Origin: Rhodocyclaceae bacterium
Lineage (GTDB): Bacteria > Pseudomonadota > Gammaproteobacteria > Burkholderiales > Rhodocyclaceae
Direction: 5' to 3'
Assembly: GCA_027310465.1 (NCBI GenBank)
Contig: DAIDAU010000359.1
Location: 1-32,671 of the forward strand
Length of the DNA: 32,671 bases
How positions within the stretch are numbered: position 1 is the first letter of the stretch; each line of letters begins with the position of its first letter. Of this stretch, positions 3,769 through 28,500 are shown piece by piece. A program made the translations under genes and the position numbers. The notes beneath the pieces were generated by a model. It searched no databases, was not told the DNA's origin, and was given only the letters and a program-made list of their open reading frames with translations.

Positions 3769-3776
3769 AGGCGACC

Positions 3777-4199: not shown

Positions 4200-4211
4200 C
4201 GCAGGCCAAGA

Positions 4212-5090: not shown

Positions 5091-5100
5091 CGGAGGCCGC

Positions 5101-5364: not shown

Positions 5365-6533
5365 ACATAAAGACAGTGCCCGCCGATCCGAAGGGAGTCG
5401 ACAGCGGCCCCCACTTCATGGACGGCGACCACGCGCTGGCCGAAGGCGCGCTGGCGGCCGGCTGCCGGTTCTTCGCCGGCTATCCGATCACGCCGTCGAC
5501 CGAAACCTTCGAGCGCTTCGCCGAGCGCGCACCCGAAGTCGGCGCCATGTTCATCCAGATGGAGGACGAATTGGCCTCGATCGCCGCGATCATCGGCGGC
5601 GCCTGGGGCGGCCAGAAGGTGATGACCGTCACCTGCGGTCCCGGCTTCTCGCTGATGTGCGAAAACCTCGGCCTCGCCGCCATGACGGAGACGCCGATGG
5701 TCATCGCCAACGTGCAGCGCGCGGGTCCTTCCACGGGCGCCCCGACGCTGACCGCGCAGCAGGACATGATGTAGGCCAAGTACGGCCCGCACGGCGACAA
5801 CGCCATCATCGCCCTGTCCCCCGACAGCCCGCAGGAGTGCTTCGACCTCGCCATCGAAGCCTTCAACCTGTCCGAGCACTATCGCGTGCCGGTGGTCATC
5901 CTGACCGACGAGACCGTCGGCCACATGCACGAGAAGGTGGTGATCCCGCCGGCCGACCAGATCAAGATCGTGCCGCGCAACAACTACAGCGGCCCGAAGG
6001 AAGACTTCCGCCCCTACAAGTTCGACGGCAAGCCCGGCCATCCGATGGCGCGCGCCGGCGACGGCTACCGCTTCCACGTCACGGGCCTTACGCACAACGA
6101 GAAGGGCTACCCAGTTGTAACCGCCGAGCAGAACAAGATCGTCGTGACGCACCTGATGGAGAAGATCAACGGCCACGCCGACCAGATCGTGCGCGTAGAG
6201 ACGGACCAGCTCGAGGGCGCCGACGTCGTCGTCGTGTCCTACGGCATCACCTCGCGAATCGCGGTAAAGGCGATCCAGGATGCGCGCAAGCAGGGACTCA
6301 AGGTCGGATCGCTGCGCCTGATCACCATCTGGCCGTTCGCGCAGAAGCAGATCCGCGAAATCGCCGGCAAGGTGAAGGCCATCGTCGTACCCGAACTCAA
6401 CTACGGCCAGATGGTTCTCGAAGTCGAGCGCGCCGCGGCCGGCAAGTGCAAGGTCATCAGCGTCAATCACTGCGGCGGCGCGGTGCATGAGCCCGAGGAA
6501 ATCCTCGAAGCGATCAGAAAGGGAAGCAAATGA
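5361..6533 (+). pseudogene. korA: 2-oxoacid (probably 2-oxoglutarate):ferredoxin oxidoreductase alpha subunit, interrupted by an in-frame TAG at 5772-5774
   Basis: ORF 5361-5774 (EGALAAGCRFFAGYPITPSTETFE...TGAPTLTAQQDMM*) continues in the same frame as AKYGPHGDNAIIALSPDSPQECFDLAIEAFNLSEHYRVPVVILTDETVGHM... to TGA 6531-6533; (6533-5361+1)/3 = 391 codons. Confidence 0.85.
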
Positions 6534-7795
6534 GCACGGGCATGGACATCGCCGAGTACAAGAAGCACAGCCCGATGGCGGGCACGCTGCGCATGGACCG
6601 CATGGCGCACATCTGGTGCCCCGGCTGCGGCATCGGCTCCGAGGTCAACGCCTTCGCCGAAGCCGTCAAGCGCAGCGGGATCGATCCGGACAAGCTCGCC
6701 GTGATCTCCGGCATCGGCTGCACCGGCCGCGTCGCCGGCTACGTCGATTTCGATTCGCTCCACACCACGCACGGCCGCGCCATTCCGGTCGCCACCGGCC
6801 TCAAGCTGGCGCGTCCCGACATGAAGGTCGTCGTCTTCAGCGGCGAGGGCGACCTCACCGGCATCGGCGGCAACCACTTCATCCACGCCGCGCGCCGCAA
6901 CATGGACATCGTGGTGATCTGCAACAACAACTTCACCTACGGCATGACGGGCGGCCAGGTCACTCCCACCACGCCGGGCGGCGCCATCTCGTCGACGACG
7001 CCGTTCGGCAACCACGAGTACCCCTTCAACCTGCCGCTGCTGGCCGACGCCTGCGGCGCCAGCTACGTCGCGCGCTGGACGTCGATGCACTCGCGCAACC
7101 TGGTGCAGTCGATCGAGGAAGCGCTGTCGCGAAAGGGCTTCTCGTTCATCGAGATCATCTCACCCTGCACCACGCTCTACCTGCGCCGCAACCGTCTCGG
7201 CGATGGCGTCGACGCGCTGCAGTTCTACCAGGAGAAGGCGATCCTCAAGCACGGCGCCGACACGCGCGAGGTGGCCATCGACTTCCAGGACAAGATCATC
7301 GTCGGCAAGTTCATCGAACGCGACAAGCCGACCTACATCGAGGCGCTCGACAAGCGCTGCGTGCAGGTCGTCGGCGATGACTACCAGCTCTACGGCAAGA
7401 CCGTGCCGGAGCGCGAGGCCGAGGAGAAGGCGGAGAAGGAGCGCATCGCCGCGCGCCGCGCCGCCGCGCTGGCCGAGGCCGAAGCGGCCGAGAAGAAGGG
7501 CGCGGTCAAGAAAGCTGCTGCTCCGAAGAAGACTGCCGCCAAGGTTGCCCCGAAGATGGCCGCTCCCGCCAAGAAGACTGCCGCTGCGAAGGCCGCTCCG
7601 AAGAAGGCTGCTGCCAAGCCGGCCGTGAAGAAGGCTGCGGCGCAGAAGCCGGCTGCGAAGGTTGCTGCCAAGGCGCCAGCAAAGAAGGCGGTCGCGAAGG
7701 CGCCGGTGAAGAAGGCTGCGCCGAAGGCGACCGTCAAGGTGGCCCCGGCCAAGACGCCGATGAAGCCGGCTGCGGCGAAGAAGACTCGCAAATAA
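6530..7795 (+). CDS. korB: 2-oxoacid:ferredoxin oxidoreductase beta subunit (TPP-binding) with Lys/Ala/Pro-rich C-terminal tail
   Basis: WCPGCGIGSEVNAFAEA, SGIGCTGRVAGYVDFDSLHTTHGRAIPVATGLK, SGEGDLTGIGGNHFIHAARRNMDIVVICNNNFTYGMTGGQVTPTTP; tail KKAAAPKKTAAKVAPK...KTRK to the stop. Confidence 0.92.
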   Translation: MSTGMDIAEYKKHSPMAGTLRMDRMAHIWCPGCGIGSEVNAFAEAVKRSGIDPDKLAVISGIGCTGRVAGYVDFDSLHTTHGRAIPVATGLKLARPDMKVVVFSGEGDLTGIGGNHFIHAARRNMDIVVICNNNFTYGMTGGQVTPTTPGGAISSTTPFGNHEYPFNLPLLADACGASYVARWTSMHSRNLVQSIEEALSRKGFSFIEIISPCTTLYLRRNRLGDGVDALQFYQEKAILKHGADTREVAIDFQDKIIVGKFIERDKPTYIEALDKRCVQVVGDDYQLYGKTVPEREAEEKAEKERIAARRAAALAEAEAAEKKGAVKKAAAPKKTAAKVAPKMAAPAKKTAAAKAAPKKAAAKPAVKKAAAQKPAAKVAAKAPAKKAVAKAPVKKAAPKATVKVAPAKTPMKPAAAKKTRK

Positions 7796-7807
7796 GGAAC
7801 CGTTGCC

Positions 7808-8380
7808 ATGAGCACGACAGAGATCAGGTTCTCGGGATTCGGCGGTCAGGGCATCATCCGCTGCGCGCTGATCACCGGCAAGGCCTTGTCGCTCTATGAC
7901 GACAAGTTCGCCACGATGACGCAGAGCTTCGGCCCGGAAGCGCGCGGCAGCGCCTGCGCGGCGCAGCTCGTGGTCTCCGACGACCGCGTCCTCTATCCCT
8001 ACATCACGCATCCCGGCATCCTGATGGCGCTCTCGCAGGAAGCCTACGACAAGTACTGGAGCGAGCTGCCGAAGGGCGGCCTGCTGATCGTCGAAGAGGA
8101 TCTGGTGAAAATGAAGGCCGAGCACCCGGATCTCAACGTCCAGCGCGTGCCTGCGACCCGCTTCGCCGAGGAAGTCGGCAACCGCCTGTTCACCAACCTC
8201 GTCGCGCTCGGCTTCTTCTCCGCGGTCAGCGGCATCGTTTCCGCCGACGCCATGAAGAAGGCGCTGCCCGGCCTGGTGCCCGACCGCTTCCTCAAGGTCA
8301 ACATCAAGGCCTTCGAGAAGGGCTACGACTACGGCGTGGCGGCGATGCAGGGCGGCGTCAAACAGGAAGCTGCGGCATGA
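7808..8380 (+). CDS. korG: 2-oxoacid:ferredoxin oxidoreductase gamma subunit
   Basis: IRFSGFGGQGIIRCALITGKALSLYDDKFATMTQSFGPEARGSACAAQLVVSD: OFOR gamma signature. Confidence 0.9.
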   Translation: MSTTEIRFSGFGGQGIIRCALITGKALSLYDDKFATMTQSFGPEARGSACAAQLVVSDDRVLYPYITHPGILMALSQEAYDKYWSELPKGGLLIVEEDLVKMKAEHPDLNVQRVPATRFAEEVGNRLFTNLVALGFFSAVSGIVSADAMKKALPGLVPDRFLKVNIKAFEKGYDYGVAAMQGGVKQEAAA

Positions 8381-10332
8381 GCGAAAAGCGCACAGGCGTC
8401 TTCGTCTGCCACTGCGGCAACAATATCGCCGCGACGGTCGACGTCAAGAAGGTCGCCGAGACGATGGCCCAGGAAGGGACCGTCGCCTTCTCGAAGGATT
8501 ACGTCTACATGTGTTCCGATCCCGGCCAAAGCTCGGTGATCGAGGCCATCAAGGAACACAGGCTCGACAGCGTCGTCGTCTCGTGCTGCTCGCCCAACCT
8601 GCACGAGGGAACCTTCCGCGAGAACGCCGAGCGCGCCGGCATCAGCGGCTTCACCTGCGAGATCGCCAACATCCGCGAGCAGTGCGCCTGGGTGCACAAG
8701 GACCGCACTGAAGCGACCGAGAAGGCCATCAAGATTTCGCGCAGCGCCATCCGCCGCGTCGCCGGCAACAAGAAGCTCGATCCGATCGCCGTGCCGGTGA
8801 CGCGCCGGGCGATGGTCATCGGCGGCGGCATCGCCGGCATCCAGGCCGCGCTCGACATGGCCAACGCCGGCCTCGACGTCGTGCTGGTCGAGAAGCTCGC
8901 CACCATCGGCGGCCACATACTGCAACTCTCCGAAACCTTCCCGACGCTCGACTGCTCGCAGTGCATCCTGTCGCCGAAGATGGTGGAAGTCTCGCGCCAT
9001 CCGAAGATCAAGCTGCTGACCTACAGCGAGGTGAAGGAAGTGTCCGGCTCGGTCGGCAACTTCGAGGTCAAGATCCTCAAGAAGCCGACCTTCGTCGATG
9101 CCGAGACCTGCAAGCTGTGCGACGACTGCGCCCAGGTCTGCCCGCAGGTGGTGTCCAACGAGCACGACCTCGGCCTCACCGCGCGCCGCGCCATCCACAT
9201 CCCGTTCGCCCAGGCGATTCCCGCCAGCTACACGCTCGACGAGGAAGCCTGCCTGGGGCTCAATCCGATCCGCTGCGGCAAGTGCAAGGACGTCTGCGAG
9301 GCGGGCGCGATCAACTACGACATGCGGCCGGAGACCATCACCGAGAACGTCGGCGCCATCGTCGTCGCGACCGGCTTCGATCTCTACCCGCAGGAGAAGA
9401 TCCTCGAGTACGGCGCCGGCAATGTCGCGGACGTCCTCGACGGCCTGCAGTTCGAGCGCCTCTGCTCGGCTTCCGGCCCCACCCAGGGCCACGTCAAGCG
9501 TCCGTCGGACCGCACCGAGCCGAAGGAGGTCGTCTTCATCCAGTGCGTCGGCTCGCGCGACCCCGCGCAGCACTGCGCCTACTGCTCGAAGATCTGCTGC
9601 ATGTACACGGCCAAGCATGCGCGCCTGTACAAGCATCACGTGCCGGACGGCAAGGCCTACGTCTTCTACATCGACATCCGTTCCGGCGGCAAGAACTACG
9701 AAGAATTCGTCCAGCGCGCCATGGAGGAGGACGAGACCGTCTATCTGCGCGGCCGCGTCTCGAAGCTTCATCGCACCAAGGACGGCAAGGTGCGCGTCAT
9801 GGGCGTCGACACCCTGACCGGCCAGAACGTCGAGATCGACGCCGACATGGTCGTGCTGGCCCTCGCCATGCAGCCGTCGCAAGGCACGGCAGACGCCGCC
9901 CGCACGCTGAAGATCGGCCGCGACAAGGACGGCTTCCTCGCCGAGGCGCACCCGAAGCTGAAGCCCGTCGAAAGCGTCACCGGCGGCATTTATCTCGCCG
10001 GCTGCGCGCAAGGTCCGAAGGACATTCCCGAAACCGTGTCGCAGGCGAGCGCCGCCGCATCCAAGGTGCTGGCGCTGCTGTCGAAGCCCACGCTCAGCCA
10101 CGCGCCGACCATCGCCACGGTGCGCAACTCGCACTGCACCGGTTGCGAGATGTGCGTGACGGCGTGCCCGTACGACGCGATCCATCTCGAAAACGGCAAG
10201 GCCGTGGTGAACGAGGTGCTCTGCGAAGGCTGCGGCAGCTGCTCGGCGACCTGCCTGCGCGCGGCGATCTCGGTCAGGAACACCTCGCCGATGCAGGTGC
10301 ACGAAATGATCGAAGCCTGCCTGAGTCTCTGA
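8377..10332 (+). CDS. hdrA: Heterodisulfide reductase subunit A-like flavoprotein
   Basis: GVFVCHCGNNIAATVDV, AMVIGGGIAGIQAALDMANAG (FAD), CVGSRDPAQHCAYCSKICCMYTAKHA, multiple [4Fe-4S] motifs, C-terminal CTGCEMCVTACPYDAI / CEGCGSCSATCLRAAI; ATGA overlap with korG. Confidence 0.93.
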   Translation: MSEKRTGVFVCHCGNNIAATVDVKKVAETMAQEGTVAFSKDYVYMCSDPGQSSVIEAIKEHRLDSVVVSCCSPNLHEGTFRENAERAGISGFTCEIANIREQCAWVHKDRTEATEKAIKISRSAIRRVAGNKKLDPIAVPVTRRAMVIGGGIAGIQAALDMANAGLDVVLVEKLATIGGHILQLSETFPTLDCSQCILSPKMVEVSRHPKIKLLTYSEVKEVSGSVGNFEVKILKKPTFVDAETCKLCDDCAQVCPQVVSNEHDLGLTARRAIHIPFAQAIPASYTLDEEACLGLNPIRCGKCKDVCEAGAINYDMRPETITENVGAIVVATGFDLYPQEKILEYGAGNVADVLDGLQFERLCSASGPTQGHVKRPSDRTEPKEVVFIQCVGSRDPAQHCAYCSKICCMYTAKHARLYKHHVPDGKAYVFYIDIRSGGKNYEEFVQRAMEEDETVYLRGRVSKLHRTKDGKVRVMGVDTLTGQNVEIDADMVVLALAMQPSQGTADAARTLKIGRDKDGFLAEAHPKLKPVESVTGGIYLAGCAQGPKDIPETVSQASAAASKVLALLSKPTLSHAPTIATVRNSHCTGCEMCVTACPYDAIHLENGKAVVNEVLCEGCGSCSATCLRAAISVRNTSPMQVHEMIEACLSL

Positions 10333-10345
10333 GAGGAAACATTTG

Positions 10346-10774
10346 ATGTCGGAACAAACCTACGAGCCGAAGATCGTCGCGTTTCTCTGCAAGTGGTGCT
10401 CGTCAGCAGGGTCGGACCTGGCAGGCGTCTCGCGCATCCAGTATCCGGCCAACGCGACGCCGATCCAGGTGCCGTGCTCGGGCAGCGTGTCGCCGATGTA
10501 CATCCTGTCGGCGTTGAAGAAGGGCGCCGACGGCGTGCTGGTGTCGGGCTGCCACATCGGCGACTGCCACTATCTCGAAGGCAACTACCTGGCGCGGCGC
10601 AAGCTGCACCTCGTCAAGGAGCTGCTGCAGTTCGTCGGCATCGAGGAGAACCGTTTCCGCATGTCCTGGGTGTCCGCGGCCGAAGGCGCGAAGTTCGCCG
10701 AGGTGGTCAAGGAGTTCGTCGATGACCTGCGTCCCATGGGGCCGCAAGAAAAGCTGAAGGCGAAGCGCGCATGA
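10346..10774 (+). CDS. MvhD/FlxD-like [2Fe-2S] electron-transfer subunit
   Basis: IVAFLCKWCSSAGSDLAGVSRIQYPANATPIQVPCSGSVSPMYILSALKKGADGVLVSGCHIGDCHYLEGNYLARRK: MvhD signature. Confidence 0.9.
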   Translation: MSEQTYEPKIVAFLCKWCSSAGSDLAGVSRIQYPANATPIQVPCSGSVSPMYILSALKKGADGVLVSGCHIGDCHYLEGNYLARRKLHLVKELLQFVGIEENRFRMSWVSAAEGAKFAEVVKEFVDDLRPMGPQEKLKAKRA

Positions 10775-11802
10775 TCAACGTTCAAGACATTCGCGACACC
10801 GCGCGCGACCTGCTCGCCAAGGGCGAGGTGCGCGCCGTGATCGGCTGGCGTGCCGGCAGCCGCGGCATGGCCGCCGAGCCCTGCGTCGTCACCAAGCCGG
10901 AAGAGGCGGACAGCCTGGTCTGGGATCCGACCTGCTACCACAATCTCGCGCTGCAGCTGGTGAACGACCGCAAGGATCTGGTCCATTCGAAGAAGACCGC
11001 GACGGCGCCGATCGGCATCGTCGCCAAGGGCTGCGACGCGCGCGCCATCGTCGTGCTGCTGCAGGAACACTACTTCAAGCGCGAAGACGTCTACATCATC
11101 GGCGTCTCCTGCGAAAACAGCGGCGTGCTGGATGAGCGCAAGGTCAAGGCGCAAGTGGGCGGCTTCGCGCCGAGCGCGGCGGCTTTCGACGGCGACAACT
11201 TCAGCGTCAAGACCGCGAAGGGCGACAAGAAGCTGGCCGGCCGCGAAGTCATGGCCGACCGCTGCCTGGAATGCCGCACCCCCTTCCCCAAGGAGAACAA
11301 CACCGCGTTCGGCGATGACAAGACCGGCCGCGAGTTCGATGCGCAGTTCGCCGCGCTGGCGCGTTTCGAAGCCAACGACGAGGCGGCGCGCTGGGAGTTC
11401 TGGCAGCGCCAGTTCGACCGCTGCATCCGCTGCTTCGCCTGCCGCTCGGTCTGCCCGATGTGCTTCTGCGACGAGTGCGTCGTCGACAGCATCGAGATGA
11501 AGATCGCGCCGGAGACGACGGCCGAGGAGAAGGCCAATCGCATCCGCTGGATCGAGCGCTCGGCCGTGCGCTCCGAGAATGCCACCTACCACATGACGCG
11601 CGCCCTGCACCTGGCCGGCCGCTGCGTCGACTGCGGCGAGTGCGAGCGCGTCTGCCCGGTCAACATCCCGCTCCGGCTGCTCAACACCAAGATGGAGCGC
11701 GAGGCGCGCGAGGCCTTCGGTTTCGACCCGGGTGCTTCCATCGGGGGGCCCTCGCTGGTGGCCTCCTTCCGCGACGACGACCCCGGTGAATTCATTCGAT
11801 GA
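10771..11802 (+). CDS. Fe-S protein, FrhB/FlxC-like (4Fe-4S dicluster)
   Basis: WDPTCYHN, KGCDARAIVVLLQEHYFKREDVYIIGVSCEN (FrhB-like), CIRCFACRSVCPMCFCDEC, CVDCGECERVCPVNIPLRLLN; ATGA overlap with the previous gene. Confidence 0.75.
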   Translation: MINVQDIRDTARDLLAKGEVRAVIGWRAGSRGMAAEPCVVTKPEEADSLVWDPTCYHNLALQLVNDRKDLVHSKKTATAPIGIVAKGCDARAIVVLLQEHYFKREDVYIIGVSCENSGVLDERKVKAQVGGFAPSAAAFDGDNFSVKTAKGDKKLAGREVMADRCLECRTPFPKENNTAFGDDKTGREFDAQFAALARFEANDEAARWEFWQRQFDRCIRCFACRSVCPMCFCDECVVDSIEMKIAPETTAEEKANRIRWIERSAVRSENATYHMTRALHLAGRCVDCGECERVCPVNIPLRLLNTKMEREAREAFGFDPGASIGGPSLVASFRDDDPGEFIR

Positions 11803-12845
11803 GCATGGAAAAGACACTCGACAAAGCCCTTCTCTCCGACTGGATCGCCGCCGTCACCAGCGGCGGCTGGCAGGTGCATGGGCCTGCCCTCGAAGACGGG
11901 ATCTGGACCTTCAAGCCGGTCGCTGCATCCGTCGATCTCGACTACCCGAACGTCAAGCAGGCGCCGAAGGACTTCGCCTTCCCTCAGCGCGAGATCTTCT
12001 TCGCCTTCGAGCACATCAAGGGCGAAGCGCCACGCCTCAAGGAAGTGAAGCCCGAAGCGCCGCAGTGCGCCGTGTTCGGCGTGCGTCCCTGCGACGGCCG
12101 CGGCGCGGTGCGCATGGACAAGGTGTTCTCGGACAACGTCAACGACCCGTACTACCAGGAGCGCCGCAAGAACACGGCCTACGTCGGCCTCGCCTGCAAT
12201 GCGCCGCCGTCGCCGACCTGCTTCTGCAAGTCGGTCGGCGGCTCGCCGGTGTCGTCCGAAGGCATGGACATCCTGCTGACCGACCTCGGCGAGATCTACA
12301 TCGCGCAGGCGGCCACCAAGACCGGCGAGGCGTTGATGGCCGCCGCCGACAAGCTGTTCGGCAAGATGGGCGCCGCCGACAAGAAGCAACTGGACAAGGT
12401 CCACGCCGACGCCGTCGCCGCGCCGCAGCGCGCCGTCAAGGACGCCAAGGGCGCGCCCGCCGCGCTCAAGGCCGGCTTCGACTCCGCAGTGTGGGAAGAG
12501 ATGGCCAAGCCGTGCATCGGCTGCGGCATCTGCACCTTCCTCTGCCCGACCTGCCACTGCTTCGACATCAACGACGAGATGACGGGCATGTCGCCGCTCA
12601 AGGGCCAGCGCGTGCGCACGTGGGACAACTGCCAGTTCCCGGACTTCACCATGCACACGTCCGGCCACAACCCGCGCGAAACGCTGGGGACGCGGCTGCG
12701 CCAGCGCGTCAGCCACAAGTTCCGCTACTTCCACGAGAACTTCGGGATGCTCCAGTGCACCGGCTGCGGACGCTGCGTCTCCGAGTGCCCGGTCGGAATC
12801 GATATCGTCGCCGTCGTGAACAAGGTTGCCGAACATGTCGCATAG
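11799..12845 (+). CDS. Sulfhydrogenase beta / HydB/FlxB-like 4Fe-4S dicluster protein
   Basis: FFAFEHI, AVFGVRPCDGRGAVRMDKVF, CIGCGICTFLCPTCHCFDI, CTGCGRCVSECPVGIDIVAVVNKV. Confidence 0.8.
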   Translation: MSMEKTLDKALLSDWIAAVTSGGWQVHGPALEDGIWTFKPVAASVDLDYPNVKQAPKDFAFPQREIFFAFEHIKGEAPRLKEVKPEAPQCAVFGVRPCDGRGAVRMDKVFSDNVNDPYYQERRKNTAYVGLACNAPPSPTCFCKSVGGSPVSSEGMDILLTDLGEIYIAQAATKTGEALMAAADKLFGKMGAADKKQLDKVHADAVAAPQRAVKDAKGAPAALKAGFDSAVWEEMAKPCIGCGICTFLCPTCHCFDINDEMTGMSPLKGQRVRTWDNCQFPDFTMHTSGHNPRETLGTRLRQRVSHKFRYFHENFGMLQCTGCGRCVSECPVGIDIVAVVNKVAEHVA

Positions 12846-13674
12846 CCACGCCCACGCCAACACCTACCTGCCGAAGCTCGCCAAGATCGTCCACATCAAG
12901 GAGGAGATCGGCGGCGAGCGCGCGATCAAGACCTATCGCCTCGAGTTCGAGAACGGCGACGGCTTCGACCACGAGGTCGGCCAGTGCGCCATGCTGTCGA
13001 TCTTCGGCCGCGGCGAATCGATGATTTCGATCGCCTCGTCGCCGCTGACCAAGGAATACAAGCAGTTCTCGATCATGCGCGTCGGCCGCGTCACCAAGGC
13101 CTTCCACGAGCTGCAGGTCGGCGACGTCGTCGGCATCCGCGGCCCCTACGGCAACCAGTTCCCGCTCTCCGCGTGGAAGGGCAAGAACCTGGTCGTCATC
13201 GGCGGCGGCGTCGGCCTCGCGCCGGTGTGGCCGATCGTCACCACCGCCGTGGCCAAGCGCGCCGACTACAAGGACATCACGGTGTTCTACGGCGCGCGCT
13301 CGTCGAAGGACATCATGTACCGCGAGGACCTCGAGCGCATCCGCGGCCAGGCCACGGTGCACCTGTCGGTCGACCGTGCCGAGGAGGGCTGGAAGGAATT
13401 CGTCGGCTTCGTGCCGGCCAACGTGCTGGCCAAGAAGCCCGATCCCAAGAACACGGTGGCGATCGTCTGCGGCCCGCCGATCATGATCAAGTTCGTGATC
13501 CAGAACCTGCAGCAGCTCGGCTTCACCGACGAGCAGATCTACACCACGATCGAGAACAAGATGAAGTGCGGCGTCGGCAAGTGCGGCCGCTGCAACGTCG
13601 GCAAGGACTACGTCTGCGTGAACGGCCCGGTGTACTCCTGGGCGCAGCTCAAGGACCTGCCGCAAGAATATTGA
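12835..13674 (+). CDS. Sulfhydrogenase gamma / FlxA-like FAD/NAD(P)H-binding oxidoreductase
   Basis: TYRLEFENGDGFDHEVGQCAMLSIFGRGESMISIASS, GIRGPYGNQFPLSAWKGKNLVVIGGGVGLAPVWPI, CGPPIMIKFVIQNLQQLGF, CGVGKCGRCNVG [2Fe-2S]. ATG 12826 or ATG 12835 are both possible starts. Confidence 0.85.
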   Translation: MSHSHAHANTYLPKLAKIVHIKEEIGGERAIKTYRLEFENGDGFDHEVGQCAMLSIFGRGESMISIASSPLTKEYKQFSIMRVGRVTKAFHELQVGDVVGIRGPYGNQFPLSAWKGKNLVVIGGGVGLAPVWPIVTTAVAKRADYKDITVFYGARSSKDIMYREDLERIRGQATVHLSVDRAEEGWKEFVGFVPANVLAKKPDPKNTVAIVCGPPIMIKFVIQNLQQLGFTDEQIYTTIENKMKCGVGKCGRCNVGKDYVCVNGPVYSWAQLKDLPQEY

Positions 13675-13701: not shown

Positions 13702-14988
13702 ATGAACATTACCGGAATGCTGTACGGTTCCAAGCTCCTGAAGCTGGTCGATTTCCCGACCTCCAAGGTGCTGGGGCCGGAGGCCGACGAACACCAGATC
13801 AAGGACATGATCGCCGAGTGCGGCGAGGTCTTCGTCAAGCCGATCTTCAAGGGCGGCGTCGGCAAGAAGGGCAAGTCGGGCCTGCTCGGCCGCGCCAAGG
13901 ACGTCGGCACGGCGATGAAGGAGAAGGAGCGCCTCTACTTCGCCGAGCACTTCCACAACAACACCAAGGCCAAGGCGGAAGGCGTCACCTTCGAAGGCGC
14001 CGTGCCGGCCGAGTACGAGATCTATTTTTCGCTGTCCGACAGCACCGAGTTCCGCGCCCCGACCGTCACGCTGACGCATCACGGCGGCATGGACATCGAG
14101 GAACTGCCGGCCGACAAGCTGGCGCGCATTCCCTTCGATCCGCTGACTGGCCTCAAGGGCTTCGTCATCTCCAACGGCCTGAAGAAGATCGGCGCGCCTG
14201 CCGAACTGATCAGCCCGCTGGTACAGCACCTGCCCAAGCTGTGGGACCTCTACCACTTCTACGGCATGACCATGCTGGAGCTCAACCCGATCCGCATGAG
14301 GTCGGACGGCAAGGGCCGGCTGACGCCGGTCGCCTGCGACTTCAAGTGTTCGTTCGACAACGACGATCCCAACGTCGCCCGCCTCGGCCTTCCCGACGAC
14401 CTCGACACCTCGAGCTATTCGAACTTCGAACTCGAGGTCAACGAACTGCGCACCTACCAGGGCCAGTCCGACGTGTTCGTCATCAACGAGAAGGGCACCA
14501 TCACGGCGATGACCTTCGGCGGCGGCGCCAACGCGCTGGTCACCGAACTGCTCGGCGACGCCGCGACGATCTCGTCCGACTTCGGCGGCAACCCGCCCTA
14601 CGCCAAGATGCATGACATCAGCCGCATCGTCTACAAGTACTGGCTCAACCAGTCCAACGTGCTGTTCATCATCGGCGGCAAGGCCAACAACACCGACATC
14701 TTCGAGACCTTCCGCGCCATGTCCGACGCGCTGCGCGACCACTTCAACGCCTACGGCCCGCAGCCGCTCTACGTGGTGGTCGGCCGCGGCGGTCCCAATC
14801 TCATCCGCGGCATGTCCTACATGAAGGACACACTCGACTCGCTCGGCATCCCCTACCAGATGTTCGGCTTCGACTCGGCCATGAGCGAGGTGGTCAACTT
14901 CGCGCAGGCGGTCGACGCATGGATGAAGAACGGCGGCCGCGAAATCGTTGCCAAGCAAATGGGCCTCAGCGTCCAACAAGCGGCCTGA
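13702..14988 (+). CDS. aclB: ATP-citrate lyase small subunit-like (ATP-grasp, SCS-beta-like)
   Basis: ILE/KVLGPEADEHQIKDMIAECGEVFVKPIFKGGVGKKGKSG..., LWDLYHFYGMTMLELNPIRM, FGGGANALVTELLGDAATISSDFGGNPPYAKMHDISRIVYKYWL: ACL ATP-grasp/citrate-binding arrangement. Confidence 0.82.
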   Translation: MNITGMLYGSKLLKLVDFPTSKVLGPEADEHQIKDMIAECGEVFVKPIFKGGVGKKGKSGLLGRAKDVGTAMKEKERLYFAEHFHNNTKAKAEGVTFEGAVPAEYEIYFSLSDSTEFRAPTVTLTHHGGMDIEELPADKLARIPFDPLTGLKGFVISNGLKKIGAPAELISPLVQHLPKLWDLYHFYGMTMLELNPIRMRSDGKGRLTPVACDFKCSFDNDDPNVARLGLPDDLDTSSYSNFELEVNELRTYQGQSDVFVINEKGTITAMTFGGGANALVTELLGDAATISSDFGGNPPYAKMHDISRIVYKYWLNQSNVLFIIGGKANNTDIFETFRAMSDALRDHFNAYGPQPLYVVVGRGGPNLIRGMSYMKDTLDSLGIPYQMFGFDSAMSEVVNFAQAVDAWMKNGGREIVAKQMGLSVQQAA

Positions 14989-15001: not shown

Positions 15002-17719
15002 ATGCACCAATCCGGCATCGCGCCGTTCCGCAAGTACTTCGTCGGCATCAACTCCCTGGCGGAGCTGGCCACCAAGAAGGACCGCGTCTGCGTCCTCAAC
15101 ATCACCGGCGGCGAGTCGCGCACCGTCACGCCCGTCAGCCACATCTATTCGGGCGGCAACATCGTCTGCGGCACGGCGCCCGGCCGTTCCGGCTCGGCCA
15201 TGAAGACCGCGGCGGGCGACATCCCCGTGTTCGACAATATGGCGGAGGCCGTCAATGCCGGCGTCAAATTCAACGTCGTCGTCGTGTACCTGCCGCCGTC
15301 CGGCGTGCGCGACGGCGTCATCGAGGCGATCCGGGTCAATCCCGACCTCGAGAAGATCGTCATCCTGACCGAAAAGGTGCCGGTCCGCGACGCGCGCATC
15401 ATCCGCGCCATGGGGCAGTTGCACGGCGTCGACATCTTCGGCGCCAACTGCCTCGGCATCGCCGACGCGCACAACCATATCCGCATCGGCGGCGCCCTGG
15501 GCGGCAGCGCGCCGGAAGAGTCGCTGCTGCCGGGCTCGGTCGCCATCTACTCGAACTCCGGCAACTTCACCACGACCATCGCCGTGTACCTGGCGACGGC
15601 GGGGTGGGGCAGCACCGTGTCGCTGTCGTCCGGCAAGGACATCTACATCCACTACGCGGCGCCCGAATGGGCCCACGCCTTCCACATGGACGACCGCTCC
15701 AAGGCGGCCGTCATGTACGTCGAGCCGGGCGGCTACTACGAGCACGACCTGACGTTCGAGAAGCCCGTCGTCGCCTGCGTCGTCGGCCGCTGGAAGGCCA
15801 AGCTGACCAAGGCCTGCGGCCACGCCGGCGCCATCGCCGGCTCGGGCGACAATGCCTTCGCCAAGGAAGAGTGGTTCATGAAGAAGTTCGGCGTCGACGC
15901 GTTGTTCACGCCGGACAATCCCGTGTGCACCGAAAAGGGCGCCGTCGTCACCAACATCGCCCACATCCCGGCCGCGCTGACGGCCGTGATGGCGAAGCGC
16001 GGCTTGAAGCCGGACTTCGCGCCGGTCGGCGACCTCTCGATGAAGTGCTGGTTCTCCAACACCCAGGGCATCGAACTGCCGAAGCCCCTGAATCCGCCCG
16101 TGGTCAAGGCGATGGCACCGTACGACGAGCAGATCGGCTCGCTCGGCGAGCAGGTCGGCGCCGTCTTCGCGCGCCAGTCGATGAAGGACGCCTCCGGCGC
16201 CTCGATGATGGATTCGAAGACCCAGGTCACGCGCGTCCATGGCGTCGCCGTGCTTGACTCCTCGACGCACGCCTTCGAGGAGAACCTGGTCCAGAGCCTG
16301 ATCCGCGAGTACCCGGACGCCAACGGCATCAAGCTGGCCAACGTCGCGCTCAACGCCTTCGTCAACCGGGCCGGCCACATCGGCCTGGCTGCGGCCGACG
16401 CCGCGCGCGAATCCGGCAACGCTCCGAATACGGTGCTCGCCGCGGCCGTCGCGATGGTGGGGCCGAAGGATGTCGAGTTTTCGCGGCATGCCGCGGCGAC
16501 GCTGGTGAACCTGTTCAAGAAGGTCCATATCGACGATCCCGCCGCGAGCGGCGTCGATTTCAGCGCCCAGCTCGGCGCGGCGGAGGCCGACGCGCTGGTG
16601 TCCTCGGCCGCCTGCGAACGCGGCGCCGCCATGCTGGCGGCCATCAAGGCGCGCGGCGCGAAGTCGATGTTCGTCGACTTCCTCGAAGCGCTGGCGCAGA
16701 AGACCGGCAAGCACCTGCGCGGCCAGGTCGTCCTCGCCGCGATCGCCACGCATCTCGGCTGGAAACCGCTGATGCGCAAGCGCCTCTCGGCGCTGACCGT
16801 CTCGAACATGCCGTGGCACTTCCGCGTGTTCAGCACGCTGATCGGCTCGGCCGCCGGCAGCGCGCAGCAGAGCACGGGCAAGTTCTGCAATGTGGCTGAC
16901 GCCGAGCTGATGAAGTCCTACAGCTTCACCGAGACCGCCTACATGGCGCTGTTCGGCAACCGCCCGGACGCCGACGCCCTCTACGGCTTCTCGGTGCTGC
17001 TGGGCCTCATCACCTCGAACGGCCCGGGCACGATCTCCGCCCAGGGCGCGAAGGGCGCAGTCAGCGCGGATGGTCCGGAAGCCCCGGAACGCGTGCAAAT
17101 CAACAAGGGATACATCGGCTTCCTGACGCATACGGGCTTCGCGCACGGCGGCAACGGCTTCGAAGCGATCGCCTTCCTGCTGGACCGTTTCCGCGATTCC
17201 GGCCTCAAGGACCCCGGCTCCGAGTCCCACGGCCTGGACCTCGCGGCCATGGCGACCGCCTACGCCAAGCAGTACAAGGGCTACAAGTCCAAGGCCAAGG
17301 CCGAGGGCAATATCTCCTACGAGAAGATTCCCTGCGTCAATCACCCGGTGTTCAAGGACAAGGACGTCAACTACGACCCGCGTGAAGTCTTCGTCAACGA
17401 CCTGTTCAGGAAGCGCGGCAGCTACAACGTCTTCCACGACTTCTACCATAACCTGGTGCAGGCCCTCTACAAGACGGGCGTCAGCAAGAACGTGTACTGC
17501 GTCAACGTCGACGCCGTGATTGCCGTGATTCTGCTGAAGATGCTCTGGAAGCCGTACGCCGAAGGCAAGATCAGCGACGCCACCATGGAGGCGGCCGCGT
17601 TCACCACCTTCCTCTTCGGCCGCATGATAGGCTCCGCCGCGGAGATCGACGACCATACCAATCGTGGCCGCAACATGGACACACGGACGCCGGCCTCTGC
17701 CTGCGCCTACGTTTCCTGA
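15002..17719 (+). CDS. aclA: ATP-citrate lyase large subunit-like (SCS-alpha-like plus citryl-CoA lyase/citrate-synthase-like domain), divergent 905-aa form
   Basis: SCS-alpha-like Rossmann region, phospho-His motif KACGHAGAIAGSGDNAF, C-terminal ALFGNRPDADALYGFSVLLGLITSNGPGTISAQG...HTGFAHGGNGFEA...NVYCVNVDAVIAVILLKML matching the ACL C-terminal layout. Confidence 0.82.
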   Translation: MHQSGIAPFRKYFVGINSLAELATKKDRVCVLNITGGESRTVTPVSHIYSGGNIVCGTAPGRSGSAMKTAAGDIPVFDNMAEAVNAGVKFNVVVVYLPPSGVRDGVIEAIRVNPDLEKIVILTEKVPVRDARIIRAMGQLHGVDIFGANCLGIADAHNHIRIGGALGGSAPEESLLPGSVAIYSNSGNFTTTIAVYLATAGWGSTVSLSSGKDIYIHYAAPEWAHAFHMDDRSKAAVMYVEPGGYYEHDLTFEKPVVACVVGRWKAKLTKACGHAGAIAGSGDNAFAKEEWFMKKFGVDALFTPDNPVCTEKGAVVTNIAHIPAALTAVMAKRGLKPDFAPVGDLSMKCWFSNTQGIELPKPLNPPVVKAMAPYDEQIGSLGEQVGAVFARQSMKDASGASMMDSKTQVTRVHGVAVLDSSTHAFEENLVQSLIREYPDANGIKLANVALNAFVNRAGHIGLAAADAARESGNAPNTVLAAAVAMVGPKDVEFSRHAAATLVNLFKKVHIDDPAASGVDFSAQLGAAEADALVSSAACERGAAMLAAIKARGAKSMFVDFLEALAQKTGKHLRGQVVLAAIATHLGWKPLMRKRLSALTVSNMPWHFRVFSTLIGSAAGSAQQSTGKFCNVADAELMKSYSFTETAYMALFGNRPDADALYGFSVLLGLITSNGPGTISAQGAKGAVSADGPEAPERVQINKGYIGFLTHTGFAHGGNGFEAIAFLLDRFRDSGLKDPGSESHGLDLAAMATAYAKQYKGYKSKAKAEGNISYEKIPCVNHPVFKDKDVNYDPREVFVNDLFRKRGSYNVFHDFYHNLVQALYKTGVSKNVYCVNVDAVIAVILLKMLWKPYAEGKISDATMEAAAFTTFLFGRMIGSAAEIDDHTNRGRNMDTRTPASACAYVS

Positions 17720-17741: not shown

Positions 17742-19988
<2,247 letters not shown>

Positions 19989-20043: not shown

Positions 20044-22608
20044 ATGACCATGCTTGAAGCCTATCGAGCCCAAGTTGCCGAGCGCGAAGCACTTGGCATC
20101 CCGCCCCTGCCGCTGACGCCTGCGCAGACGAAGGACCTCGTCGCGCTGCTGAAGAATCCGCCCAAGGGCGAGGAAGCCTTCCTCGTCGAACTCATCACCC
20201 ACCGCGTTCCTGCCGGCGTCGACGATGCCGCCAAGGTGAAGGCCGAGTTTCTCGCCGCCGTCGCCAACGGTGCAGTGAAGAGCCCGATCTCGAAGGTGCG
20301 CGCCACGGAACTGCTCGGCAGCATGCTCGGGGGTTTCAACGTCAAGCCGCTGATCGATTTGCTGGCCGATGCCGAATGCGGCGCCGCGGCCGCCCAGGCG
20401 CTCAAGCACACGCTGCTGGTCTTCGACTTCTTCAACGAGGTCAAGGCGCTGGCCGACAAGGGCAATGCCAACGCCAAGTCCGTCATGCAGTCCTGGGCCG
20501 ACGCCGAGTGGTTCACCTCGCGCGCCGGCGTGCCGGAAAGCCTGACGGTCACCGTCTTCAAGGTCTCGGGCGAGACCAACACCGACGATCTGTCTCCCGC
20601 GACCGATGCGTGGAGCCGTCCCGACATTCCGCTGCACGCGCTGGGCATGCTGAAGAACCCGCGCGCCGGCATCACCCCCGACGAGCCGGGCAAGCTCGGC
20701 CCCGTCAAGCTGCTGCAGGAACTCAAGGCCAAGGGCCACCTCGTCGCCTACGTCGGCGACGTCGTCGGCACGGGCTCCTCGCGCAAGTCGGCGACCAACT
20801 CGGTGCTGTGGTGGACGGGCGAGGACATCCCATTCGTGCCGAACAAGCGCTACGGCGGCGTCTGCCTCGGCTCCAAGATCGCGCCGATCTTCTTCAACAC
20901 CATGGAAGACGCCGGCGCGCTGCCGGTGGAGCTCGACGTGTCGCAGATGGAAATGGGCGACGTCGTCGAGCTGCGCCCGCTGGAAGGCAAGGCGCTCAAG
21001 AACGGCAACGTCATTGCAGAATTCAAGATCAAGTCCGACGTGATCTTCGACGAAGTGCGCGCCGGCGGACGCATCAACCTGATCGTCGGCCGCGGTCTCA
21101 CCGCCAAGGCGCGCGAAGCGCTGGGCCTCGCGCCCTCGACGCTGTTCCGCCTGCCGGTCCAGCCAGCGGACACCGGCAAGGGCTACACGCTGGCGCAGAA
21201 GATGGTCGGCAAGGCCTGCGGCGTCGCGGGCGTGCGTCCGGGCGCCTACTGCGAACCCAGGATGACGACGGTCGGCTCGCAGGACACGACGGGCCCGATG
21301 ACGCGCGACGAGATGAAGGACCTGGCGTGCCTCGGCTTCTCCGCCGACCTCGTGATGCAGTCGTTCTGCCACACGGCGGCCTATCCGAAGCCCGTCGACG
21401 TCAAGACCCACAAGACGCTGCCCGAATTCATCTCCAGCCGCGGCGGCGTCGCCCTGCGTCCGGGCGACGGCGTGATCCATTCCTGGCTCAACCGCATGCT
21501 GCTGCCCGACACGGTAGGAACCGGCGGTGACTCGCACACGCGCTTTCCGCTCGGCATATCCTTCCCGGCCGGCTCAGGCCTGGTGGCCTTCGCCGCCGCG
21601 ACCGGCATGATGCCGCTCGACATGCCCGAATCCGTGGTGGTGCGCTTCAAGGGCCAGATGCAGCCCGGCATCACCCTGCGCGACCTGGTGAACGCGATTC
21701 CCTACGTCGCCATCCAGCGCGGCCTGCTGACCGTCGAAAAGAAGGGCAAGAAGAATGTCTTCTCCGGCACGATCCTGGAGATCGAAGGCCTCGAGAATCT
21801 CAAGGTCGAGCAGGCCTTCGAACTGGCCAACGCCTCCGCCGAGCGCTCCGCCGCGGCCTGCACGGTCAAGCTGTCGAAGGAATCGGTCGCCGAGTACACG
21901 CGCTCCAACGTCGCGCTGCTCAAGTGGATGGTCGCCAACGGCTACCAGGACAAGAAGACGCTCGAACGCCGCATCGCCGCCATGGAAGCCTGGCTGGCCA
22001 ACCCGGAACTGCTCGAAGCCGACAAGGATGCCGAGTACGCGGCCGTGTTCGAGATCGACATGTCCTCAATCCGCGAGCCGATCGTCGCCTGCCCGAACGA
22101 TCCGGACGACGTGAAGCTGCTGTCGCAGGTCGCCGGCGACAAGATCGACGAGGTCTTCATCGGCTCCTGCATGACCAACATCGGCCACTTCCGCGCCGCC
22201 GGCAAGATGCTGACCGGCAAGACCGACATCCCGACCCGCCTGTGGATCGCGCCGCCGACGAAGATGGATGCCGGCGTGCTGCGCGAGGAGGGCTACTACA
22301 GCATGCTCGGCCAGGCGGGGGCGCGCATGGAGATCCCGGGCTGCTCGCTGTGCATGGGCAACCAGGCGCAGACGCACAAAGGCATCACGGCGATGTCGAC
22401 CTCGACGCGCAACTTCCCGAACCGTCTCGGCATCGACACCCGCGTCTACCTCGGCTCGGCCGAACTCGCTTCGGTGTGCGCCATGCTGGGCCGCATCCCG
22501 ACGGTCGCCGAATACATGGAGCAGTACCAGCCCGTGGCCGAGAAGGCCGGCGACATCTATCGCTACATGAACTTCGACCAGATCGACGAGTATCGCGCCG
22601 CCGCTTGA
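20044..22608 (+). CDS. acnB: Aconitate hydratase B (bifunctional)
   Basis: [27 protein letters not shown]..., [54 protein letters not shown]. Confidence 0.96.
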
Positions 22609-23391: not shown

Positions 23392-25119
23392 ATGTATCCA
23401 GAATACCTGAACGAATCGCTGAAGGCCTTCGAGCGCACCCGCGCCAAGCGCCTCGAGCTCGCCCTGACCGGCAAGCCGGTGTTCCCGCCCATGAACGCCG
23501 ACGAGCGCAAGGACGTGCTTTCCAAGTACCACCCCGACTTCGCGGCGGGCTCCAAGCGCGTGGGGCGCGTCGGCCCGAACCGCGGCGAGGAACTGACGAC
23601 GGAAGTCGCCGAAATCCTCGAAGCCCACTCAATGATCGAGCCGAAGCTGATGGACATCCATCTGCGCGAGCCCGACTACGAAACCGACCTGCTGATCATC
23701 GGCGGCGGCGGCGCCGGCTGCTGGGCGGCCATCACCGCCGCGCGCAACGGCTGCAAGTCGCTGATCGCCACCAAGCTGCGCATGGGCGACGCCAACACCA
23801 TGATGTCCGAGGGCGGCATGCAGGCCGCCGTCTCGCGCACCGACTCGCCGACGCGCCACTTCCTCGACGCCATGGGCGGCGGCCACTTCGAGAACATGCC
23901 CGAGCTCGTCAAGGTGCTGACCCAGGACGGCCCGGACGTCGTGCGCGACCTCGAGAACCTCGGCGTCGTCTGGGACAAGATGGACGACGGCTCGATGCAG
24001 GTCCTGCACGGCGGCGGCACGTCGCGCAAGCGCATGGTCTCCTGCCGCGACCTGATCGGCGCCACCATCATGCGCACGCTGATGGACGAGGTGAAGAACC
24101 ATCCCGACATGATCGCCGTGCGCGAGTTCGAACCGGCGGTCGAACTGATCCTCGACGACAAGGGCCACTGCGCCGGCGCCGTGCTCTACAGCCTGGACAC
24201 CGAGCAGTTCCTGACGGTGAAGGCCAAGGCCACCGTGATCACCACCGGCGGTTTCGGCCGGCTGCACATCCGCGGCTTCGCCACCACCAACCACTACGGC
24301 GCCACCGGCGACGGCCTCGTCATGGCCTACCGCGCGGGAGCCAAGCTCAAGTTCATGGACTCGGTGCAGTACCACCCGACCGGTGCGGTGTTCCCCGAGC
24401 AGATCGCCGGCTTCCTGGTGACCGAGAAGATCCGCGGCGCCGGCGGCCAGCCGCTCAACAAGAACGGCGAGCTGTTCGTCTTCCCGCGCGAGCCGCGCGA
24501 CGTCGAGTCCGCCGCGATCATCCGCGAGTGCAGCCCCGACCGCAACATGGGCGTCGACACCTACGCCGGCCGCCTGGGCGTATGGCTCGACTCGCCGATC
24601 ATCGACATGATCCACGGCGAAGGCTACGTGCGCCACCAGTTCCCCGGCATCTGCCGCCAGTTCGACCGCTTCGGCATCGACATCGCCAAGCAGCCGATGC
24701 TGATCTACCCGTCGCTGCACTACCAGAACGGCGGCGTCGGCATCAACGAGCGCTGCGAGACCAACATCCCCGGCCTGTACGTCGCGGGCGAGGCTTCCGG
24801 CGGCGTGCACGGCCGCAACCGCCTGATGGGCAACTCGGTGCTCGACTACAACGTCTTCGGCCGCCGCGCCGGCCAGTACGCCAGCGAATACGCCAAGAAG
24901 GCCAAGCTCGGCAAGCTCAACGTCGATCACGTCGCCACCCACGCCGCCGAACTGGCGCGCGAGGGCATCGACACCGACCTGGTGTCGCCGCTGATCCTGC
25001 CGTCCTACACGCCCGAGGACGTCAAGATCCAGCAGATGGCCCGCCTGGGCAACATCCCGGCCCGCCATTCGATGCTGCGCAGCCGGTTTACGCCTGGGGA
25101 GCGGAAGACGCACCTGTAA
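23392..25119 (+). CDS. Fumarate reductase/succinate dehydrogenase-type flavoprotein
   Basis: ETDLLIIGGGGAGCWAAITAARNG, ATVITTGGFGRL, SVQYHPTGAVFPEQI, YVAGEASGGVHGRNRLMGNSVLDYNVFGRRAG. Confidence 0.88.
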   Translation: MYPEYLNESLKAFERTRAKRLELALTGKPVFPPMNADERKDVLSKYHPDFAAGSKRVGRVGPNRGEELTTEVAEILEAHSMIEPKLMDIHLREPDYETDLLIIGGGGAGCWAAITAARNGCKSLIATKLRMGDANTMMSEGGMQAAVSRTDSPTRHFLDAMGGGHFENMPELVKVLTQDGPDVVRDLENLGVVWDKMDDGSMQVLHGGGTSRKRMVSCRDLIGATIMRTLMDEVKNHPDMIAVREFEPAVELILDDKGHCAGAVLYSLDTEQFLTVKAKATVITTGGFGRLHIRGFATTNHYGATGDGLVMAYRAGAKLKFMDSVQYHPTGAVFPEQIAGFLVTEKIRGAGGQPLNKNGELFVFPREPRDVESAAIIRECSPDRNMGVDTYAGRLGVWLDSPIIDMIHGEGYVRHQFPGICRQFDRFGIDIAKQPMLIYPSLHYQNGGVGINERCETNIPGLYVAGEASGGVHGRNRLMGNSVLDYNVFGRRAGQYASEYAKKAKLGKLNVDHVATHAAELAREGIDTDLVSPLILPSYTPEDVKIQQMARLGNIPARHSMLRSRFTPGERKTHL

Positions 25120-25125
25120 GCAGCT

Positions 25126-25424
25126 GGCTGGAATACCGGGGGTTTTAATCCGCCGAGGGCGACGGGTGGTCGTCGCCGCTCCGTGTCCCCCGGCGGACAA
25201 GAGCGATAAAGCGTCCGCCTCCTCCTGTACCTACGCGTCGACGACCACCCGCCACCCTCGGCTCGACGCCCTGCCGTTCTGGACCTATCGGGCCGGCACC
25301 ATGGTTCCGCGCTCGGGCTGATGGGGTGGTCCGCTGCGCGTAAGTAAAGGAGGAGGCGGACGCCTTATCGTCTTTGTCCGCCGGGGGACATGGAGCGCAG
25401 CGGACCACCCCGTCGGCCCGAGCG
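25126..25424. repeat. Repeat element copy A: two inverted nested-hairpin units
   Basis: Unit 1 outer arms 25153-25175/25239-25261, inner arms 25192-25198/25213-25219; unit 2 outer arms 25311-25339/25395-25423, inner arms 25355-25361/25376-25382. Near-copy at 29057-29353. Confidence 0.92.
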
Positions 25425-25472
25425 CTCGCACCCTCGCACCAACCGAAGGCGACCAACTTATGCCCCGATAAG

Positions 25473-25599
25473 TCCGGCTCTCTCAGCCGAGAAGAGCGCC
25501 ATTGTTGCATCGCGATTACCACATTTGCGGTACGATTACGCCCTCGCAATATGCAACCGGCCGACGTCCGTTCGGCCATTTTTTTGCCCCGGAGCCCCC
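25473..25599 (+). promoter_or_regulatory. Structured leader of pyc with a terminator-like hairpin just upstream of the start codon
   Basis: CGGCT-CTCTC-AGCCG (25475-25489), GTTGCAT/ATGCAAC (25504-25510/25551-25557), GGCCGA-N7-TCGGCC-ATTTTTTT (25559-25585), then GGAG and ATG 25600. Confidence 0.5.
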
Positions 25600-28500
25600 A
25601 TGAGCAAGATCCGCAAACTCCTGATCGCCAACCGCAGCGAAATCGCGATCCGCGTATTGCGCGCTGCGAATGAAATGGGCATACGCACGGTCACCGTCTA
25701 CTCGAACGAGGACCGCTTCGCGCTGCACCGCTTCAAGGCCGACGAGAGCTACCTGGTGGGCAACGGCAAGAAGCCGCTGCAGGCGTATCTCGACATCGAG
25801 GACATCATCCGCATCGCCAAGGATGCGAAGGTGGATGCGATCCATCCGGGCTACGGCTTCCTTTCCGAGAACCCCGATTTCGCCGAGGCTTGCGGCAAGG
25901 CCGGCATCATGTTCGTCGGCCCCACGCCGGAAGTCATGCGCACGCTGGGCAACAAGGTCGCGGCGCGCAATGCCGCGGTGGCGGCCGGCGTGCCGGTGAT
26001 GCCGGCGACCGATCCGCTGCCGAAGGACTTCAAGCAGGCGGCGAAACTCGCCGCCGAGATCGGCTATCCGCTGATGCTCAAGGCGAGCTGGGGCGGCGGC
26101 GGCCGCGGCATGCGCGTGATCGAATCCGAGGCCGACCTCAAGGCGCAACTCGACGTGGCGCGGCGCGAAGCCGGCGCGGCCTTCGGCAACGACGAGATGT
26201 ACCTCGAGAAGCTGGTGCGCGACGCGCGCCACGTCGAGGTGCAGATCATGGGCGACAAGCACGGCCACGTCGTGCATCTCTTCGAGCGCGACTGCTCGGT
26301 GCAGCGGCGCAACCAGAAGGTCGTCGAGCAGGCGCCGGCGCCTTACCTGAACAACGATCAGCGCGAGCAGATCTGCGGCGCGGCGCTGGCGCTGGCCGGC
26401 GCGGTGAATTACACGCATGCCGGCACGGTCGAGTTCCTGATGGACGCCGATACCGGCAAGTTCTACTTCATCGAGGTCAACCCGCGCATCCAGGTCGAGC
26501 ACACCGTGACCGAGGAGGTCACGGGCATCGACATCGTCAAGGCGCAGATCCGCATCGCCGAGGGCGCCAAGATCGGGCACAAGGACTCCGGCGTGCCGGC
26601 GCAGAAGAACATCCGCCTCTCGGGCCATGCGCTGCAATGCCGCGTCACCACGGAAGACCCGGAGAACAACTTCACGCCGGATTACGGCCGCATCAACTCC
26701 TATCGCAGCGCGGCCGGCTTCGGCATCCGCCTCGACGCCGGCACCGCCTATACCGGCGCCGTCATCACGCCGTACTACGACTCGCTGCTGGTGAAAGTGA
26801 CCGCCTGGGCGCCGACGGCCGAGGACGCCATCCATCGCATGGGCCGCGCGCTGCGCGAGTTCAAGGTGCGTGGACTGTCGACCAACCTGCAGTTCCTCGA
26901 GAACCTGATCGACCATCCGAAGTTCGTCGCCGGCGAATGCTCGACGCGCTTCATCGACACGCATCCCGAGCTGTTCCACTTCCCCAAGCGCCGCGACCGC
27001 GCCTCGCGCCTGCTGCGCTTCGTCGGCGAAGTCGTGGTCAACGGCAACGACGAGGTCAAGGGCCGCACGCTGCCCAAGCTGCCGCTGACGCAGCCGCTGA
27101 TGCCGAAGACCGACCTCGCGGCGCCGGTGCCGCCCGGCACGCGCGACCTGCTGAAGAAGCTCGGCGCAAAGAAGTTCGCCAAGTGGATGCTCGAGCAGCC
27201 GCAGGTGCTGCTGACCGACACGACGATGCGGGACGCCCACCAGTCGCTGTTCGCCACGCGCATGCGCACCGCGGACATGACCGCGATCGCGCCGCACTAT
27301 GCGCGCGACCTGTCGCAGCTCTTTTCGCTCGAATGCTGGGGCGGCGCGACCTTCGACGTCGCCATGCGCTTCCTCAAGGAAGACCCGTGGGAGCGCCTCG
27401 CGCTGCTGCGCGAAGCCGTGCCGAACATCCTGTTCCAGATGCTGCTGCGCTCGGGCAACGCCGTCGGCTACACCAACTACGCCGACAACATTGTGCGCTA
27501 CTTCGTCGAGCAGGCGGCCAAGAACGGCATGGACGTGTTCCGCGTGTTCGACTCGCTGAACTGGGTCGACAACATGCGCGTCGCGATGGACGCGGTCATC
27601 GAGAGCGGGGCGCTCTGCGAAGCGGCGATCTGCTACACCGGCGACCTGTTCGACGCCAGCCGGCCGAAGTACAACCTCAAATACTACGTGACCATGGCCA
27701 AGCAGCTCGAGAAGGCCGGCGCGCACATCCTCGGCATCAAGGACATGGCCGGCGTCTGCCGCCCGCGCGCGGCGCGCGAACTGGTCAAGGCGCTGAAGGA
27801 GGAGATCGGCATCCCGATCCACCTGCACACCCACGACACCAGCGGCGCCTCGGCGGCCAGCGTGCTGGCGGCGATCGAAGCGGGTGTCGACGCCGTCGAC
27901 GGCGCGATGGATTCGATGAGCGGCCTCACCTCGCAGCCGAGCCTCGGCGCGATCACCGCGGCGCTCGAAGGCACCGAGCGTGCGCCGCGCATGACCATCG
28001 ACCAGATGCAGCCGTTCTCGCGCTATTGGGAGGACGTGCGCCGCTTCTATTCGCCGTTCGAGCCGGACATCCGCTCGGGCACCTCCGACGTCTATCGCCA
28101 TGAGATGCCCGGCGGCCAATACACGAACCTGCGCGAGCAGGCGCGCTCGATGGGCCTCGAGCACCGCTGGGCCGAGGTCTCCAAGGCCTATGCCGACGTG
28201 AACCAGCTGTTCGGCGACATCGTCAAGGTGACGCCGTCGTCCAAGGTCGTCGGCGACATGGCGCTGGCGATGGTGGTGAACGACCTCACGCCCGAGGACG
28301 TCGCCGATCCAGACAAGGAAATCGCCTTCCCCGACTCGGTGATCTCGATGTTCCGCGGCGAGATGGGCTTCCCGGCCGACGGCTTCCCATTGGCCCTGCA
28401 GAAGAAGATCCTCAAGGGCAAGCCGCCGCTCGCCGGACGTCCGGGCGAAATCATCCCGCCCGCGGATCTCGACGCGCTGCGCGCCGACGGCGAGCAGGCC

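Follow-up and report, generated by a model that had tools for sequence, protein, structure and literature searches.

The locus examined here raises two linked questions: why the large subunit of an ATP citrate lyase (ACL) should be so long, and how its lyase domain, in which the His pattern of human ACLY is altered, would cleave citryl-CoA. The window, a stretch of 32,671 nucleotides that makes up an entire contig in the 3.8-Mb draft genome of a Rhodocyclaceae bacterium, carries on its forward strand the gene aclA (15002-17719, 905 aa), whose product is the large subunit of type II ACL, a known but uncharacterised citrate-splitting family of CO2-fixing bacteria. This protein had been recognised as an ACL large subunit in an earlier note made from the sequence alone, and both its resemblance, over the full length, to already published type II ACL loci (82% identity to L002, and 78% to L004 and L005) and its setting among aclB, kor, hdr-flx, idh, and acn genes agree with that assignment. 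The loci of the metagenome-assembled genome (MAG) RIFOXYD12_FULL_61_37 and of tubeworm symbionts are 78-82% identical to it. The unusual length pointed out in the same note is also real, considering that the type I AclA of Sulfurovum has 600 aa and one lyase module.

The aclB-aclA pair lies inside a kor/hdr-flx/idh/acn cluster, as in a previously published arrangement (PMC6315080). On the forward strand, we found rubrerythrin, hdrCB, korABG, hdrA, and flx-type electron-transfer genes of an rTCA cluster (3235-13674, by family matches), followed by aclB (13702-14988), whose 428-aa product is a small subunit with ATP-grasp and ACL citrate-binding domains (Pfam PF16114, 7e-19; PF08442, 1e-11). Downstream of aclA are genes for a monomeric NADP isocitrate dehydrogenase (17769-19988; NCBIfam TIGR00178, 1320 bits), aconitase B (20044-22608; NCBIfam TIGR00117, 1466 bits), and pyruvate carboxylase (25390-29046; NCBIfam NF009554, 1823 bits), all on the same strand. 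Two irregularities were observed in the window. The korA gene (5358-6533, forward strand) has an in-frame TAG at 5772-5774 (QQDMM*AKYGPHG), beyond which the reading frame continues to the end of the protein; a relative with 89% identity (L052) has Gln at this position, and the codon is either a sequencing error or a nonsense mutation. In addition, the open reading frame called at 23392-25119 encodes a fumarate-reductase-like flavoprotein in which the FAD domain is preceded by about 95 additional N-terminal residues, and the start codon may be misplaced. Elsewhere in the same genome, a RuBisCO large subunit is encoded on contig C458 (L095). Since RuBisCO and the rTCA cluster occur in one draft genome, the two CO2 fixation pathways may coexist in it, and organisms with two carbon fixation pathways have been described alongside type II ACL (PMC3522073, PMC6315080).

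The N-terminal part of AclA (aa 15-305, 15044-15916, forward strand) is similar to the alpha subunit of succinyl-CoA synthetase and to citryl-CoA synthetase, its best PDB match being the citryl-CoA synthetase small subunit 6hxq (5e-53). H274 of the GHAGA motif (15821-15823) aligns with the phospho-His motif of these synthetases, and E124 (15371-15373) is found at the place of ACLY E599, a position that was checked against PDB. Both residues are invariant in the 37 sequences of alignment A2, which reaches down to 39% identity and includes one Verrucomicrobial MAG.

The lyase domain at the C-terminus, designated domain B (aa 633-905, 16898-17716), is a citryl-CoA lyase (CCL) domain with an intact citrate synthase (CS)-type site. 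This C-terminal part of AclA shows weak similarity to CCL models, and domain B aligns with the CCL profile in hhalign at 98.5% (score 107.5); the CS family profile PF00285 gave no match in AclA at 0.001. A full-length Foldseek search returned only mixed alignments to ACL chains with an rmsd of about 17 A, so the residue mapping is not based on full-length superposition. The full-length AclA model is itself moderate (pLDDT 79.7, pTM 0.60) and represents a single chain rather than an oligomer. Residues were instead read from a joint alignment in which domain B was placed alongside stand-alone CCLs, CS, and human ACLY, the human letters being checked against PDB chains, and a profile-profile alignment gave the same residue register for domain B.

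In both alignments, N673 (17018-17020) falls on ACLY H900, and H715 (17144-17146) shares its column with ACLY F935 and with the HGG His of CS and CCL. The former lies within SNGPGTISA (residues 672-680, 17015-17041; placed at 17005-17040 in the earlier note) and the latter within FAHGGNGFEA (residues 713-722, 17138-17167; formerly about 17135-17166). A change from His to Asn at the first column, a CS-like His at the second, and a match of Asp to ACLY D1026 had all been suggested, and each holds, the Asp being D837 of NVDA (17510-17512) within NVDAVIAVILLKML (residues 835-848). That description of the active site overlooked four further residues of the CS-type site, a third His and three Arg. 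These are H781 (17342-17344), in the column of ACLY H975; R794 of DPRE (17381-17383), in the column of CS R329; R874 (17621-17623), aligned with R401 of CS, the Arg of its (G)R-x-x-G; and R895 near the C-terminus (17684-17686), the likely counterpart of CS R421 in a region where the alignment is loose. The columns of the CS His/His/Asp triad are filled in domain B by H715, H781, and D837, and we take these columns to be those of pig CS H274, H320, and D375 in the established numbering. The three Arg are invariant as well, and N673, H715, H781, and D837, together with the phospho-His, are identical in all 37 sequences. The same N/H/H/D pattern was also found in four plasmid-borne relatives. Chance or sequencing error at N673 and H715 is ruled out by this conservation among relatives.

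The greater length of the region before the lyase domain, also mentioned in the earlier note, was confirmed; rather than a linker, this region forms a second, degenerate CCL domain, designated domain A (aa 405-632, 16214-16897, forward strand). When the profiles of domains A and B were compared by hhalign, a probability of 98.1% and a score of 94.5 were obtained, with 30 column shuffles as controls giving at most 0.9% and a score of at most 19.6 and the reversed alignment a probability of 0.4. Modelled alone by AlphaFold2 with 36 relatives, domain A reached a pLDDT of 92.7 and a pTM of 0.90. Its top PDB fold is the citryl-CoA lyase 6hxp, the sole match passing an E of 0.001, and all 50 PDB matches listed are citryl-CoA lyase modules, ACLs, or citrate/methylcitrate synthases. 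The helix order is the same in both domains of the full AclA model, and the two domains are sisters in the tree (100/98), a placement to which a long-branch warning is attached. A linker or an unrelated insert is ruled out by profile, fold, and tree, and AclA is long because a decayed second lyase copy adjoins the presumably active lyase domain.

The decay of domain A is visible in its residues. Read in the hhalign register (columns 571 and 613 of the conservation count being off by about one residue), it has no counterparts of H715, the H781 loop, or R874, and its HGG-His column is freely variable; only 14 of its 228 columns are invariant, compared with 81 of 273 in domain B. The Asp of the NVD motif is retained in domain A of the heterotroph copies inspected (ADAVLAA). 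Type II-like ACLs of approximately 700 aa without domain A were observed in genomes related to the Verrucomicrobia MAG (L016, 696 aa; L092, 706 aa; and L093), and such short forms are rare, being present in 3 of 145 genomes of the Verrucomicrobial phylum. A duplication later than the short Verrucomicrobial form was disfavoured in the first tree (p 0.037) but was no longer so when two more short relatives were added (p 0.437).

We propose that the N-terminal part together with AclB would phosphorylate citrate via H274 and produce citryl-CoA as in citryl-CoA synthetase, and that citryl-CoA would then be split in domain B by a CS-type site working in reverse, with domain A serving as a structural partner. 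As a whole, this proposal appears to us to be probably correct. Judged by homology, H781 would take the hydroxyl proton, H715 and D837 would stabilise the acetyl-CoA enolate and protonate it, and oxaloacetate would be held by R794, R874, and R895, while N673 would be the replacement of a substrate-contact His that type I ACL has retained. Domain A, as a decayed tandem lyase copy devoid of both His, may have been kept because of its structural role, probably replacing one half of a CS-fold lyase dimer. HGG is also carried by the solved lyase 6hxp, a stand-alone CCL; however, the short relative L093 has no HGG His, which counts against the proposal. On balance, a conserved CS triad in domain B beside a decayed domain A speaks for catalysis in domain B, without proving it.

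An alternative that we regard as unlikely, but that deserves serious consideration, is that domain B is non-catalytic, C-C cleavage taking place in the synthetase part, the lyase module only loading and unloading CoA, and the His change being neutral drift. The role of the lyase module in human ACLY, and hence that of H900, is disputed, and Wei et al., whose ACLY D1026A and R976E data favour such a reading, argued that the CSH domain is allosteric and that C-C cleavage occurs in the ASH part, with direct catalysis left open for the ACLs of other species (PMC10115795). Because E124, the counterpart of E599, is also invariant, cleavage could lie in the N-terminal part of AclA as well. On the other hand, H715, H781, D837, and the three Arg are strictly conserved down to 39% identity, whereas domain A, in the same chain, has lost most of these residues, which argues that selection keeps the site of domain B.

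The difference between type I ACL (human and Sulfurovum), with DHG and RFGG, and type II ACL, with S/TNG and HGG, might also be explained by relocation of the catalytic His, in a type I-like ancestor, out of the column of ACLY H900 and into that of HGG, a move between these two positions having been considered possible in the earlier note. We consider this improbable, since CS and the Hydrogenobacter CCL hold His at both columns and loss from a two-His ancestor is simpler than relocation. Reciprocal loss, in which type I ACL lost the HGG His and type II ACL lost the His of the H900 column, would be the simplest history. The two columns are labile across stand-alone lyases, and the pattern is not without parallel in the superfamily at large: H/H, A/H, and H/none all occur among CCL-like proteins, with DAG and HGG in L055 and EHG without the HGG His in several others, and the short relative L093 has TNG (N/none). 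The N-terminal part of AclA also speaks against relocation, since it is sister to the citryl-CoA synthetase 6hxq (99/97) and a clade of type I and type II ACLs is rejected there (p 0.021), in a tree with two type I rows and one citryl-CoA synthetase row; however, this argument is limited by the lyase domain, for which the joint clade is not rejected (p 0.134). An independent origin of the lyase domain is unsupported, as the joint clade stands at that value. Given that the N-terminal tree rejects the joint clade and the lyase-domain tree does not, there is a hint that type II ACL might be a fusion separate from that of type I. A more complete version of our proposal, according to which type II ACL would be an intrachain pseudo-heterodimer of one live and one dead copy, cleaving citryl-CoA with the CS His triad and derived from a fusion, separate from type I, of citryl-CoA-synthetase-like and CCL-like proteins, is tentative and somewhat doubtful at present.

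Relatives of AclA at 64-82% identity are present in tubeworm symbionts, the RIFOXYD12_FULL_61_37 MAG, Thiomargarita, Magnetococcales, and Rhodocyclaceae. Many Rhodocyclaceae genomes have full-length relatives at 55-60% identity that belong to a heterotroph branch (among loci L020-L046); in the two Rhodocyclaceae loci inspected, a porin and a sensor kinase (histidine-kinase core) are encoded nearby, with a 2CSK_N domain in one. The genome studied here also encodes part of a second such large subunit of type II ACL (L051; aa 1-540; contig C481, 41-1657), which belongs to this branch and is 66% identical to L023. Plasmid-borne relatives were found in Paraburkholderia, Caballeronia, Sinorhizobium fredii, Microvirga, Aminobacter, and Polymorphobacter (loci including L076-L079), labelled "CoA-binding protein" or "hypothetical protein" and adjoining an ATP-grasp or citrate-binding partner, and several of them are close to MFS, DctA, or 2-hydroxycarboxylate transporters. 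The heterotroph relatives are probably involved in catabolic citrate use, and we infer that they may function in taking up and cleaving citrate or a similar acid rather than in CO2 fixation. That AclA itself cleaves another tricarboxylate (such as 2-methylcitrate or homocitrate) or acts mainly as a citrate synthase, as the CS-like site and the heterotroph relatives outside rTCA clusters might suggest, is very improbable in view of its rTCA neighbours (aclB with a citrate-binding domain, idh, acnB, and kor), a separate citrate synthase encoded in the same draft genome, and the published rTCA evidence for tubeworm symbionts (PMC3522073, PMC6315080).

As the family is found in heterotrophs and on plasmids, the presence of acl genes does not by itself prove that CO2 is fixed through the rTCA cycle. 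In addition, whether the CS-like module contributes chemistry or regulation in human ACLY, a drug target, is an open dispute, and, if the pseudo-heterodimer reading is true, type II ACL would allow the catalytic and allosteric views of ACL lyase modules to be tested in a natural system. Since it combines the opposite His to type I with a dead copy of the module in one chain, these models could be told apart with point mutants of a single natural enzyme.

With regard to known systems, the family is known and its architecture is a variant. Vestimentiferan symbionts and Thioflavicoccus have a type II ACL (PMC3522073, PMC6315080, where the name is credited to Hugler and Sievert 2011) of the same protein family, encoded in the same rTCA gene cluster. 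AclA does not differ from it in kind, and both the tandem lyase domain and the His pattern are traits of the family. No description of these two traits was found in the open-access papers searched. Type I ACL (human ACLY, Chlorobium AclAB, and Sulfurovum) is similar in having a synthetase-alpha part with GHAGA followed by a CCL module with the GxGH His and NVD Asp, but it possesses one CCL module in an AclA of 600 aa, whereas the protein described here has two CCL-fold domains in 905 aa. The human and Sulfurovum enzymes combine DHG with RFGG, compared with SNG and AHGG here, and the type I N-terminal part is on a different branch, albeit in a tree with few type I rows. CS shares with AclA the columns of H274, H320, D375, and the Arg ligands, all of which are filled, whereas AclA differs in having Asn at the DHE/DHG column, a synthetase fusion, and no Pfam CS match. 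Of the Hydrogenobacter proteins, 6hxq is the PDB entry closest to the N-terminal part, and 6hxp has the closest lyase profile and also contains the HGG His, but the two are separate enzymes with no second lyase copy, and 6hxp combines DHG with AHGG, thus carrying His at both sites.
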